DNA of 57,523 nucleotides from Clostridia bacterium. GTDB lineage: Bacteria > Bacillota > Clostridia > Christensenellales > Aristaeellaceae. The notes under the pieces were generated by a model, which was not told where the DNA came from, did no database searches, and was given only the letters and a program-made list of their open reading frames with translations. Of this stretch, positions 12,792 to 16,697 are shown piece by piece; the stretch's first letter is position 1; each line of letters opens with the position of its first letter. The stretch is from NCBI GenBank assembly GCA_017448975.1, contig JAFSKN010000012.1, positions 1 to 57,523 of the forward strand, read 5' to 3'. A program made the position numbers and the translations under genes.

Positions 12792-12820
12792 TTGACAATT
12801 CTCCGGGATACGGGTATACT
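12792..12820 (+). promoter_or_regulatory. SigA promoter of the exporter attenuator operon
   Basis: Perfect TTGACA (12792-12797), 17-base spacer, TATACT (12815-12820). It stands 35 nt before the leader peptide start and is one of the strongest promoters in the window. Confidence 0.8.
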
Positions 12821-12854
12821 TGGAACGAAATTTGAAGGAAAGGAGGCCGCGGGA

Positions 12855-12941
12855 ATGTACAGCAATATTCGGAAAATGATTGTTCTGTTTGCAACCAAGG
12901 GGTATCTCTGTGTATTTTTGCGGCCTGACAAAGCCTGCTGA
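12855..12941 (+). CDS. 28-codon leader peptide upstream of the ABC exporter
   Basis: A short frame with AAAGGAGG 9 nt before its ATG. It starts MYSNIRKMIVLF and ends FLRPDKAC before TGA. It lies between the promoter and an intrinsic terminator that ends 34 nt before the exporter gene. The layout is like bmrB, the leader peptide in front of bmrCD in B. subtilis, where ribosome stalling by translation inhibitors relieves termination. A CCTTG block just after the stop (12945-12949) can pair with CAAGG (12966-12970), the left edge of the terminator, giving a possible antiterminator. Sequence of the peptide itself is not matched to a known leader. Confidence 0.65.
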   Translation: MYSNIRKMIVLFATKGYLCVFLRPDKAC

Positions 12942-12966
12942 ACGCCTTGCGCGGAAGCGGGATTAC

Positions 12967-13000
12967 AAGGTCATCGGCTGCAAAGCGGATGGCCTTTTTT
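12967..13000 (+). terminator. Intrinsic terminator (attenuator) before the exporter genes
   Basis: AAGGTCATC (12967-12975) pairs with GATGGCCTT (12988-12996) with one G-U pair; an inner GCT/AGC stem closes a GCAA tetraloop. A run of six T follows from 12995. It lies inside the operon leader, between the leader peptide and the first exporter gene. Confidence 0.75.
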
Positions 13001-13033
13001 CATACTTCGTTTTCGGATTGGGAGGGATTTCCT

Positions 13034-14857
13034 ATGGAACAGCGGAAGCCGCGCCTGATGGGAAAGCTGATTGGCGATAACAAATGGTATTTTATCGCGG
13101 CGCTGGTGTGCACGGTGTTTACCGTTGCCATCGAGTTTATTACGCCCATTATTTTAGCGGAAACCATGGACCATTATTTGCTGGGCGAAGCCAGCCGCAT
13201 GCCGGTCTTTGTGAACGCCTGGATCGATTCCCTGGGCGGCAGGGAATTTATGATCGGCCATCTGTGGATCGCGGGGATCGTGCTGGTGGGGCTGAACGTG
13301 CTGAACGGCGTTTTCGGCTTCATCAAAGGCCGTTTCCAGGCGGTGGCTGGAGAAAACGTTTCTCTGACCCTGCGGGATAGGCTGTACAGCCACATCCAGC
13401 GCCTGCCCTACGCCTACCATGTGAAGGCGGAAACGGGCGACTTGGTGCAGCGCTGCACCTCGGACGTGGAAACCGTGCGGCGTTTCCTGGCAACGCAAAT
13501 GATGCAGGTGGTGAACGCCCTGCTCATGGTCGCCATTGCCTTGGGTTATATGTTCAGCGAGAACGTGAAAATCACCCTGATCAGCATGGTCATGATTCCG
13601 GGCCTGTTCCTGTTCGCCTGGCTGTTTTTCCGGTGGGTGATCAAGAACTTCCGCCTGTCCGACGAGGCGGAGGGCAAAATGAGCGCCGTTTTGCAGGAAA
13701 ACCTGACCGGCGTGCGGGTGGTGCGCGCTTTCGGCCAGCAGGAATACGAGGTGGAGAAGTTCGATCAGGCTTCCTCCGATTTCCGGAAGAAAACCTTCAA
13801 GCTCTGCAACCTGCTGGCGGTTTATTGGGCCACCAGCGACTTGATGAGCATGCTGCAGTCCATGATGACCCTGCTGGCCTGCGTGTATTTCGCCATTCAG
13901 GGCGAAATCACCGTGGGCGGCCTGATCATCTTCACAAGCTATATCTGGAAGCTGCTGTTTCCCATCCGCCAGTTGGGCCGCATTTTGAGCGACGCGGGCA
14001 AAAGCAAGGTGGCTCTGGACCGCATTCAGGAGATTTTGGGCGTGCCGGAGGAACCGGAAGAGCCCGACGCCGTCAAGCCATCCCTCAAAGGCGATATCGT
14101 GTTCGATCACGTCACCTTCGGCTATGACAGCGGCAAGGACGTGCTGCGGGACATGAGCTTCACCATTCCGGCCGGAAAAACGGTGGCCATTTTGGGGGCG
14201 ACGGGCAGCGGAAAATCCACTGTGGCCCACCTGATCCAGCGGCTGTTTGACGTAAAGAAGGGCGAAATCCGCATCGGCGGCACGCCCATCAACCAAATCG
14301 ACCGGTATTACCTGCGCTCCCGGGTGGGCCTGGTGTTGCAGGAACCCTTCCTGTATTCCAAAACGCTGAAAGAAAACGTGGCCATCGCCCTGCGGAACGC
14401 TTCCGACGCGGACATCGACCGTGCGGTGACCGACGCCGCTGCCAAGGAATTTATCCTGGACAGCGAAAAAGGCTTTGACACTTTGGTTGGCGAACGGGGC
14501 GTGACCCTGTCCGGCGGACAGAAGCAGCGCATCGCTATCGCCCGCACGCTGATGAAGGACAACGATATTCTGATTTTCGACGATTCCCTGTCCGCCGTGG
14601 ACACGGAAACCGACGCCCAGATCCGCGCGGCGCTGAAAAAGCGCAGCAAGGATACCACCACCATCATCATCAGCCATCGGGTGGTGACGCTTTCCCAGGC
14701 GGATTTGATTTTGGTCATGGAGGACGGAAAAATCACCGAGCAGGGCACCCACAATGAGCTGATCCACTCCGGCGGCCTGTACAGCAGGATTTTCAACATC
14801 CAATCCGCCTTGGAAGAAGAATTCAAAGAGGAGAAAAACAGCTATGCAGCAGTTTGA
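13034..14857 (+). CDS. ABC exporter half-transporter, degenerate-site subunit (BmrC-like)
   Basis: A 607-aa fused membrane-ATPase protein. Six membrane helices span about residues 15-310. Walker A GATGSGKST is near 390, the signature LSGGQKQR near 492 is canonical, but the Walker B end reads LIFDDSLSAVD, with Asp in place of the catalytic Glu. That is the mark of the degenerate half of heterodimeric exporters such as BmrCD, LmrCD and TM287/288. The start at 13034 has GGGAGG 8 nt upstream; an in-frame upstream codon at 12947 lacks such a site and lies in the attenuator. It overlaps the partner gene by 14 nt. Likely role is drug or lipid export. Confidence 0.92.
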   Translation: MEQRKPRLMGKLIGDNKWYFIAALVCTVFTVAIEFITPIILAETMDHYLLGEASRMPVFVNAWIDSLGGREFMIGHLWIAGIVLVGLNVLNGVFGFIKGRFQAVAGENVSLTLRDRLYSHIQRLPYAYHVKAETGDLVQRCTSDVETVRRFLATQMMQVVNALLMVAIALGYMFSENVKITLISMVMIPGLFLFAWLFFRWVIKNFRLSDEAEGKMSAVLQENLTGVRVVRAFGQQEYEVEKFDQASSDFRKKTFKLCNLLAVYWATSDLMSMLQSMMTLLACVYFAIQGEITVGGLIIFTSYIWKLLFPIRQLGRILSDAGKSKVALDRIQEILGVPEEPEEPDAVKPSLKGDIVFDHVTFGYDSGKDVLRDMSFTIPAGKTVAILGATGSGKSTVAHLIQRLFDVKKGEIRIGGTPINQIDRYYLRSRVGLVLQEPFLYSKTLKENVAIALRNASDADIDRAVTDAAAKEFILDSEKGFDTLVGERGVTLSGGQKQRIAIARTLMKDNDILIFDDSLSAVDTETDAQIRAALKKRSKDTTTIIISHRVVTLSQADLILVMEDGKITEQGTHNELIHSGGLYSRIFNIQSALEEEFKEEKNSYAAV

Positions 14858-16697
14858 TGAACAGGATTATACCCAGCGTTTTTCCCTGTCGCTGTGGCGG
14901 AAAATCCTGCTGTATGCCAGGGAATACTATCCCGATTTATGCAAGTTGAGTGTTACCATGGCGGTGACGGCGGGGTGCGACGTGGTATTTCCTTTGATGA
15001 CCACCTACGCCATCGACCATTTCATTCCCAACCTGGATCACGCGGGCACCATGGAAGGGCTGCCGGGATTCATCGGCGTCTATTTGGCGATCCTGGTGAT
15101 TCAGGTGGCGTCCATCTTCTATTTCCTGTATTTGGGCGGAAAGATCGAGGTGGGCGTATGCTACACCATCCGCAGGCAGGCTTTCCGCAAATTGCAGGAG
15201 CTTCCCTTTTCCTACTATGACAGGATGCCCGTGGGCTATCTCATGAGCCGCATGACCAGCGACACCCAGCGGCTGGCGGAAACCATCGGCTGGTCCATGC
15301 TGGACCTGGCCTGGGGCGCCGTCATGCTGGTGGCCGCCAGCGTGACCATGCTGGTGCTCAATTGGAAAATGGCGCTGATGGTGATGCTTGTGGTGCCGCC
15401 CCTGGCGCTGGTTTCCTGGTGGTTCCAGCAGAGGATTTTAAAAGCTTACCGCGCCGTGCGCAAAACCAACAGCAAAATCACCGGCGCCTTCAACGAGGGC
15501 ATTATGGGGGCCAAAACCACCAAGACCCTGGTGCGCGAGGAAATGAACATGGAGGAGTTCACCGAGCTCACCCATGACATGAAAAAATCCTCCGTCCGCG
15601 CCGCGTCCCTGTCGGCGGTTTATCTGCCCATCGTGGTGGCGCTGGGGTCTCTTGCCACGGCCTACGCCCTGTGGAAGGGCGGCAGCGCCGTGCTGGTGGG
15701 CGGCATGACCTTGGGCGTGCTCCAGGCGTTCATCAATTACACCGTGCAGTTCTTTGAACCCATCCGCAATATCGCCAACGTGTTCGCGGAAATGCAGTCC
15801 GCCCAGGCGGCGGCGGAACGGGTGCTGACCCTGCTGGAGACGAAACCGGACATCGTGGATTCCCCGGAAGTAGAAGAAAAATTCGGCGACAATTTTCACC
15901 CCAAGAAGGAAAACTGGCCCGAACTCAAAGGCGACGTGGAATTCTGCCACGTGGATTTCCAATATAAGGAGGGCGAAAAGGTCCTTTCCGATTTCAACCT
16001 GAAAATCAAGGCGGGGGAGACCGTGGCGCTTGTGGGCCCCACCGGCGCGGGCAAATCCACGGTGGTGAACCTGATCTGCCGGTTCTATGAACCCACGGCG
16101 GGGGAAATCAAGATCGACGGCGTGAACTACAAGGAACGCAGCCAACTGTGGCTGCAAAGCAATTTAGGTTACGTCCTCCAGGAACCGCGGCTCTTCTCCG
16201 GCACCATACGGGATAATATCCGGTACGGAAGACTGGACGCCACCGATGAGGAAATCGAAGCCGCCGCACGGATGCTGAACGCGGAAACCTTCATTCTGCT
16301 CATGGAAAAGGGCTACGATACGGACGTGGGCGAGGGCGGCAGCCGCCTGTCCACCGGCGAAAAGCAGCTCATTTCCTTTGCCCGGGCGCTGCTGGCCGAT
16401 CCCCGCATTTTCGTGCTGGACGAGGCCACCTCCTCCGTGGATACGCAGACCGAACAGATCATCCAGCAGGCCATTTCCAAGGTGCTCAAGGGGCGCACCT
16501 CCTTCATCATCGCCCACCGACTGTCCACCGTGCGCACGGCGGACCGCATCCTGGTGATCGACGACGGACAGATCAAGGAAATGGGCACCCATCAGGAACT
16601 GCTGCGGAAGAAAGGCGCGTATTACAAGCTGTACACCAACCAGTTTCAGGAAGAACAGGCCATGGAGATTTTGGGCAAATCGGAAGAAACCGCATAA
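14844..16697 (+). CDS. ABC exporter half-transporter, consensus subunit (BmrD-like)
   Basis: A 617-aa partner of the preceding gene. Membrane domain about residues 20-330; Walker A GPTGAGKST near 400; Walker B FVLDEATSSVD keeps the catalytic Glu; the signature motif is changed to LSTGEKQ. Together the two subunits would give one active and one degenerate ATP site, as in known heterodimers. GAGGAG lies 9 nt before the ATG and the gene overlaps its partner, so translation is coupled. The intrinsic terminator at 16716-16751 closes the operon. Confidence 0.93.
   Translation: MQQFDEQDYTQRFSLSLWRKILLYAREYYPDLCKLSVTMAVTAGCDVVFPLMTTYAIDHFIPNLDHAGTMEGLPGFIGVYLAILVIQVASIFYFLYLGGKIEVGVCYTIRRQAFRKLQELPFSYYDRMPVGYLMSRMTSDTQRLAETIGWSMLDLAWGAVMLVAASVTMLVLNWKMALMVMLVVPPLALVSWWFQQRILKAYRAVRKTNSKITGAFNEGIMGAKTTKTLVREEMNMEEFTELTHDMKKSSVRAASLSAVYLPIVVALGSLATAYALWKGGSAVLVGGMTLGVLQAFINYTVQFFEPIRNIANVFAEMQSAQAAAERVLTLLETKPDIVDSPEVEEKFGDNFHPKKENWPELKGDVEFCHVDFQYKEGEKVLSDFNLKIKAGETVALVGPTGAGKSTVVNLICRFYEPTAGEIKIDGVNYKERSQLWLQSNLGYVLQEPRLFSGTIRDNIRYGRLDATDEEIEAAARMLNAETFILLMEKGYDTDVGEGGSRLSTGEKQLISFARALLADPRIFVLDEATSSVDTQTEQIIQQAISKVLKGRTSFIIAHRLSTVRTADRILVIDDGQIKEMGTHQELLRKKGAYYKLYTNQFQEEQAMEILGKSEETA

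Follow-up and report, generated by a model that had tools for sequence, protein, structure and literature searches.

In the vmlR leader of Bacillus subtilis, an upstream open reading frame (uORF) is described as lying inside an anti-antiterminator hairpin, and a ribosome stalled by an antibiotic keeps this hairpin from forming and lets the antiterminator form, so that termination does not occur (PMC9226507). The results given in that study include induction by drugs that arrest initiation; among its uORF variants, MDN and MDK were at least equal to MIN, and MRK was less good (PMC9226507). For bmrB-bmrCD, also of B. subtilis, translation of the leader is described as required, lincomycin, erythromycin and chloramphenicol as inducers, and the role of an anti-antiterminator is left open for bmrB in the passages concerned (PMC4191407).

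We analyzed a leader in a stretch of 57,523 nucleotides (the window) from contig JAFSKN010000012.1 of a Clostridia bacterium. It is probably a transcription attenuator of the vmlR/bmrB kind, built from three helices that exclude one another; a ribosome arrested in the start region would cause read-through into an exporter. The elements of the leader and the genes behind it are as follows.

12792-12820, + strand: promoter of sigma-70 type, TTGACA-17-TATACT, 11 of 12 consensus matches
12840-12846, + strand: Shine-Dalgarno sequence (SD) of the leader ORF, AAGGAGG, from the sequence
12845-12862, + strand: segment 1, predicted 5' arm of the anti-antiterminator (end of the SD and leader start codon), in an 18-bp helix with 12908-12925
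12855-12941, + strand: leader ORF of 28 codons, MYSNIRKMIVLFATKGYLCVFLRPDKAC, from the translation
12908-12925, + strand: segment 2, predicted 3' arm of the anti-antiterminator, under the codons for CVFLRP, containing TTTTTGCGGCC, paired with segment 1
12916-12929, + strand: predicted 5' arm of the antiterminator (segment 2 plus TGAC), paired with 12970-12973 and 12976-12985
12967-13000, + strand: intrinsic terminator, with hairpin 12967-12996 and U tract 12995-13000, -18.3 kcal/mol, z -5.7
12970-12985, + strand: segment 3, predicted 3' arm of the antiterminator, within the 5' arm and loop of the terminator, from fold and pairing counts
13034-14857, + strand: ABC exporter subunit 1, 607 aa, with FDDSLSAVD at the end of Walker B, from the translation
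14844-16697, + strand: ABC exporter subunit 2, 617 aa, with signature LSTGEKQ and with LDEATSSVD, from the translation

The leader, the exporter and their relatives

The earlier note, which had only the letters of the DNA, described a strong promoter, a 28-codon peptide with its own ribosome site, an intrinsic terminator with a U tail and a heterodimeric ABC exporter downstream, and all of these were found again. A promoter scan returned 2 promoter-like sites in 901 bases (shuffles averaged 0.4), and similar sites can be read from sequence 5' of the leaders of relatives. The leader ORF with its own SD stands ahead of an intrinsic terminator in the window and in relatives. No shuffle out of 200 gave a hairpin as good as that at 12967-12996; a simple terminator scan found none (shuffles averaged 1.3), presumably missing this hairpin because of its 1x1 mismatch. 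Conservation of the terminator, named in the earlier note as a check, is borne out in alignment A1, which holds 28 of the 98 leaders presented below (25 from the window's genus and 3 others): both sides changed at 7 of 11 pairs, and the covariation score was reached by none of 500 shuffles. The antiterminator proposed there, CCTTG (12945-12949) with CAAGG (12966-12970), had to be given up: the window has both words, but three near relatives (G025, G005 and G010) lack CCTTG in the corresponding interval, which leaves this pairing unsupported.

Compared with solved structures, subunit 1 matched YheI (8t1p_C, E = 3.9e-89) and subunit 2 matched YheH (8t1p_D, E = 4.3e-100), which we take to be BmrC and BmrD, respectively; TM_0288 was likewise among the matches, and P-glycoprotein-type chains outscored YheI/YheH among the best 60 matches listed. 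FDDSLSAVD on one side and LSTGEKQ/LDEATSSVD on the other are presumably the unequal catalytic motifs of the two half-transporters. Two adjacent half-transporters whose motifs, read from the translations, are unequal make this a pair of the BmrCD/TM287-288 type. MsbA and other exporter families of NCBIfam matched subunit 1 below their curated cut-offs, and no cut-off was passed among the best 25 of 91 matches of subunit 1 or the best 25 of 86 of subunit 2. The two-gene pump probably expels drugs. Nine other exporter reading frames of the same genome showed no uORF by the detection rule, some of these frames being second genes of pairs and one (L008) having less than 300 nt upstream.

Of 300 genomes sampled from the family, 124 have an orthologue of the exporter at E ≤ 1e-170. 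Leaders were detected by a fixed rule, which asked for a promoter-like site, an SD, an ORF of 12 to 60 codons and a hairpin with a T run; 98 of the 124 upstream regions passed it, with ORFs of 16 to 57 codons. Since the rule itself required a promoter-like site, the 98 leaders with a promoter are no independent count. The motif AAAGG(A/G)GG precedes the leader start in 73 of the 98. Of the 26 upstream regions lacking a leader by the rule, 2 were too short and 24 failed it. The figure of 98 is probably an underestimate, because one of the failures (G175) has an SD and a complementary segment that can be read by eye. Several of the Clostridia carrying the leader come from rumen samples.

Within the window's genus, the rule found the leader in 25 of 29 genomes. 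In G007, G011, G015 and G024, congeners without it, the exporter is only 42 to 44% identical and has a different leader. Six genomes, these four congeners among them, carry this different structured leader before the 42-44% identical exporter:

L099:576-658, L101:544-631 and L104:554-639, + strand: different structured leader
L100:163-250, L102:128-213 and L105:132-218, - strand: different structured leader

It carries ATCGGAGGGTC in most cases, a small hairpin and then a long terminator-like hairpin. Of its 22 predicted pairs, 9 have changed on both sides in one or more of the six sequences, and Rfam listed no match for the six loci up to E 0.5. No leader ORF was noticed in it. It could be a separate riboswitch-like element.

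Other searches traced the main leader further. The pattern GGAGGCCGC..TTTGCGGCC gave 22 matches in the 300 family genomes, 15 of them the exporter leader, one per genome, and 7 elsewhere (G204, G087, G099, G208, G119, G194 and G093). A scan of all genome contigs gave 29 matches; among the 16 that were read, 4 (L071, L072, L078 and L090) lie ahead of apparent ABC exporters and 12 were not leader-like. The covariance model R1, built from the 25 congeneric leaders and 3 others, necessarily recovers those 25. Against 297 genomes of the order it returned 12 matches: 3 in the genus, 1 in G035, 6 in other families, ahead of exporters, and 2 (L226 and L228) judged false by their surroundings. The 6 lie in families f10 (G336, G572, G536, G458 and G555) and f17 (G363), before genes that were identified as apparent ABC exporters from their translations. 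R1 is insensitive, as it missed G047, G122, G044 and G084, in all of which the detection rule finds a leader. Its search of the genus added 7 weak matches, of which 6 were not leader-like and 1, L232 (G027:C27:14589-14754, E = 0.0012), was. This is a leader of the same build before an apparent oligopeptide-binding protein gene: a segment late in the ORF is complementary to the SD region, a terminator follows, and the peptide contains MRMRL. Rfam 15 gave no match in the window at the gathering score (the best sub-threshold match in the leader reached 16.3 bits, against 42), so that a known riboswitch was set aside, and searches of open-licence papers listed no description of such a leader.

Pairing among three segments

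Segments 1 and 2 would form the anti-antiterminator, a helix open to disruption by a ribosome on the ORF, as in attenuators of the vmlR/bmrB type. The stretch 12843-12927 folds with 19 pairs at -32.6 kcal/mol, and none of 200 shuffles did as well (z -4.25). Compared with dinucleotide shuffles, helix 1:2 had a mean z of -2.52, and 34 of the 98 leaders beat all 100 shuffles. Matched segments scored 24.1, against 18.5 when mismatched between genera, and 46 of the 98 leaders lay in the top 5%; by genus, the median did so in 10 of 20 genera and missed it in the other 10, and genus g57 has no clear helix. One upstream region (L189) has its start misplaced in the shuffle, frame/peptide and pause counts and correctly placed in the matched-versus-mismatched and start-masked counts.

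In the window's genus, helix 1:2 is 90.3% paired and shows no significant covariation, because it is nearly invariant there; T86, T87, G88, C89, G90, G91 and C93 of segment 2 are identical in the 28 sequences of A1. Covariation becomes visible in A2, a structure-fitted alignment of 86 sources (80 of the 98 leaders and 6 loci of other families), 67 of which gave a match. Changes on both sides occur at 9 of 13 pairs of helix 1:2. Over the whole A2 structure, terminator included, doubly changed cells number 250; shuffles gave 77 (sd 7.7), with none of 500 reaching that number, and sliding the partners gave at most 62. The alignment has 71 rows, including 4 secondary or reverse matches, and, being fitted, favours its own structure. 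Re-paired segments can be seen by eye in other families (AGACCGCA/TGCGGTCT, AGGTCGC/GCGACCT and GCCGGTA/TACCGGC; the helix of G555 has one mismatch). Judged by these sequences, other letters have taken over the pairing of helix 1:2 across genera and in two further families.

Helix 2:3, the putative antiterminator, gave weaker signals. The fold of 12908-12987 has -30.7 kcal/mol (z -2.33; 4 of 200 shuffles as good). In A1, 92.5% of its cells are paired, against 36 to 50% for slid versions, and no significant covariation was seen within the genus. Its score was 18.7 for matched and 15.5 for mismatched segments between genera; 23 of the 98 leaders were in the top 5%, and the median was so in only 5 of 20 genera. 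The shuffle test was weak, with a mean z of -0.72 and none of the 98 beating all shuffles. Clear re-paired triples of segments 1, 2 and 3 occur in G036 (GGGTCGC / GCGACCC / GGTCGC), in G031 (TTCGGATAT / ATATCCGAG / ATCGGAT) and in G118 (ACACAGACAT / ATGTCTGTGG, then CTGTGGCCG / CGGCCATAG). By these counts the pairing has good support in the window's genus and a few other genera, and weak support in the rest. Opposite the exporter leader of G031, at L092:138-331 on the - strand, there is a sub-threshold T-box match (82.4 bits, cut-off 93).

Folding in silico is consistent with a switch between these helices. Naked full-length leaders of the genus formed 1:2 in 24 of 25 cases and 2:3 in none, and before the 3' arm of the terminator was present, 1:2 formed in 15 and 2:3 in 10. 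With the start codon masked by a ribosome at this stage, 2:3 formed in 21 of 25. Masking thus favours 2:3, but another route to it exists, as the 10 unmasked cases show. Once the whole terminator was present, the minimum free energy fold of the masked leader kept 2:3 in only 3 of 25, the window included, so that read-through would depend on the order of folding. By a looser count over the 98 leaders, 1:2 formed in 90 and start-masked 2:3 in 82 (all 25 of the genus and 57 of the 73 others). Giving them the terminator arm of another genus (20 draws) lowered start-masked 2:3 to 18.3 of 25 (maximum 20) and 42.2 of 73 (maximum 50), respectively.

At 12901-12912, just ahead of TTTTTGCGGCC, the core of segment 2, the window fits GGN6TGYG, the consensus of elemental pauses of RNA polymerase. 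This motif occurs in 21 of the 98 leader ORFs, against a mean of 5.1 and a maximum of 11 in 200 simple shuffles, a count from which relatedness was not removed. The enrichment is no more than suggestive; as a speculation, such a site could hold the polymerase until a ribosome loads.

Reading frame, mechanism and alternatives

The SD-linked frame is open from the start codon to segment 2 in all 25 congeneric leaders, compared with 0 of 25 for frame +1 and 16 of 25 for frame +2. In these leaders GCGG(C/T)C sits 61 to 98 nt past the start codon, and the stop codon ends 16 to 32 nt beyond segment 2. The motif TTGCGG(C/T)C is read as LRP in 12 of the 25 (FLRP in 11) and as CG(R/L) in 13, and G156, which belongs to another genus, reads it in the third frame (FAAC). 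Among the window (G000), G025 and G010, the leader differs at 10, 14 and 10 sites at codon positions 1, 2 and 3, and the first 400 codons of the exporter at 62, 22 and 277. The conserved peptide typical of nascent-peptide sensors of the erm/msrD type was not found in the leader, which has two frames in 13 and 12 of 25 leaders and no third-position bias; the codon-position differences show no sign of selection on the peptide. With the SD-linked frame always open, the stop codon just behind segment 2 and neither peptide nor frame conserved, the leader appears to have kept its translation as far as shortly beyond segment 2 and to have left the peptide free. The leader frame is therefore not conserved, an outcome that the earlier note had named as refuting its proposal, and the idea given there that a ribosome-targeting compound is sensed through FLRP falls with it. 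The DNA under FLRP would owe its conservation to its partner in the SD/start region and to the terminator as the alternative partner.

We base the proposed mechanism on the open ORF with its free frame behind a promoter and SD, on the covarying pairings of helix 1:2 and of the terminator and on the potential of 2:3 to pair. Segment 1, with the SD and start codon, and segment 2, which lies late in the ORF, would pair as the anti-antiterminator; segment 2 could instead pair with segment 3, in the terminator's loop and 5' arm, as the antiterminator. When the ORF is not translated, 1:2 would form and the terminator would halt transcription. When it is translated freely, ribosomes would cover segment 2, ending 16 to 32 nt past it, and the terminator would form again. 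A ribosome arrested at or near the start codon would mask segment 1 and leave segment 2 free, 2:3 would form first and the exporter would be transcribed. Only arrest in the start region would give read-through. The simplest signal would then be the position of the held ribosome and not a peptide motif, which would require an open ORF and leave frame and peptide free. We infer both the folding in the cell and ribosome arrest as the signal. The inducers would be drugs that arrest ribosomes at early codons, namely lincosamides and pleuromutilins, perhaps also phenicols, and, where +X+ is present, macrolides.

A classical nascent-peptide sensor, with the ribosome stalling at FLRP or +X+ in the presence of one drug class, seems unlikely to explain the leader. 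FLRP occurs in fewer than half of the congeners, as a by-product of the frame, and the codon-position differences speak against purifying selection on the peptide. Such a sensor would nevertheless fit the leaders of genus g17 (e.g., L093, L180, L193 and L194), where M(K/R)LR opens 8 of 14 peptides (in G165 at an inner start) and gives +X+, the macrolide arrest motif, at codons 2 to 4. It would also fit the excess of +X+ within residues 2 to 12, found in 26 of the 98 leaders; shuffled peptides averaged 15.4 (sd 3.3), and 1 shuffle in 500 reached the observed number. This excess suggests that peptide context may matter in part, and macrolide-specific arrest may have been added in some genera. 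We give somewhat less credence still to a switch independent of translation, in which the hairpin between SD and segment 2 would be the binding site of a ligand or protein, and the ORF incidental. The strong and conserved RNA structure would suit it, but an incidental ORF would not explain why, in the 25 congeneric leaders, the SD-linked frame alone is open throughout and ends shortly after segment 2; the letters of the helices vary freely between genera, no conserved pocket-like loop was seen, and Rfam provides no family.

Two further readings are far less probable. That the ORF encodes a functional small protein would agree with its good SD and promoter, yet the peptides vary between genera and cross segment 2 in different frames. 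Least probable of all is an ordinary end-of-operon terminator of the upstream gene combined with a chance ORF. The exporter does lie directly 3' of another gene on the same strand, but the terminator stands 3' of the promoter, and the set of promoter, SD, ORF and terminator is kept, as seen by eye, where the sequence further upstream differs, a conservation that already contradicts this reading.

Comparison with known attenuators

The proposed attenuator with three exclusive helices is of a known kind; what looks new is the use of the SD and start codon as a switch arm, the frame-free ORF and the spread through Clostridia. The chances are about even that it represents an undescribed family of attenuators, present in at least three families of one Clostridia order, that responds to translation stress when its own ribosome landing site is occupied, as a sensor of initiation arrest that is free of the peptide and drifts through all three frames while segments 1, 2 and 3 change jointly. 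If this is true, the peptide-free sensing would follow from the SD and start codon forming one arm of the switch. In bacteria found in rumen samples, the attenuator is predicted to respond generally to ribosomes that are arrested early. Tools of the uORF4u type are described as finding leader ORFs through conserved peptides; searches of this kind would tend to miss such leaders, whose peptide is unconserved and whose frame slides, and the covarying triple of SD, segment 2 and terminator could be searched for instead.

Among described leaders, that of cplR in Clostridia is also a short uORF with attenuation, which combines transcription and translation attenuation; it differs from the present leader in its conserved uORF consensus MR(I/M) and in the control of access to the resistance gene's own SD (PMC10201436). 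The main text of the study on the attenuator of patAB in Streptococcus pneumoniae uses neither "leader peptide" nor "open reading frame" as a term (PMC4319486). The toiL uORF of E. coli topAI is similar in its stalling at various positions, with several drug classes, a proposed RNA switch and no single peptide motif, whereas it acts through the downstream ribosome binding site and Rho-dependent termination, and the present leader would act through an intrinsic terminator (PMC12121999).

The logic of anti-antiterminator, antiterminator and terminator is that of vmlR, where a three-codon uORF lies in the bulge of SL-1 and the SD precedes the hairpin, whereas here SD and start codon form the 5' arm and the ORFs have 16 to 57 codons; the vmlR leader controls an ABC-F factor, and the present one precedes an exporter pair (PMC9226507). 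The likeness to bmrB-bmrCD that the earlier note had seen holds for a translation-linked transcription attenuator before a YheI/YheH-like pair, and was lost for FLRP sensing and the CCTTG/CAAGG pairing. As in bmrB-bmrCD, a leader ORF, a terminator and an antiterminator precede a heterodimeric ABC exporter; the present leader is set apart by a terminator past the stop codon and by the anti-antiterminator, its best-supported helix besides the terminator (PMC4191407). It thereby offers comparative support for an anti-antiterminator ahead of a BmrCD-like exporter.
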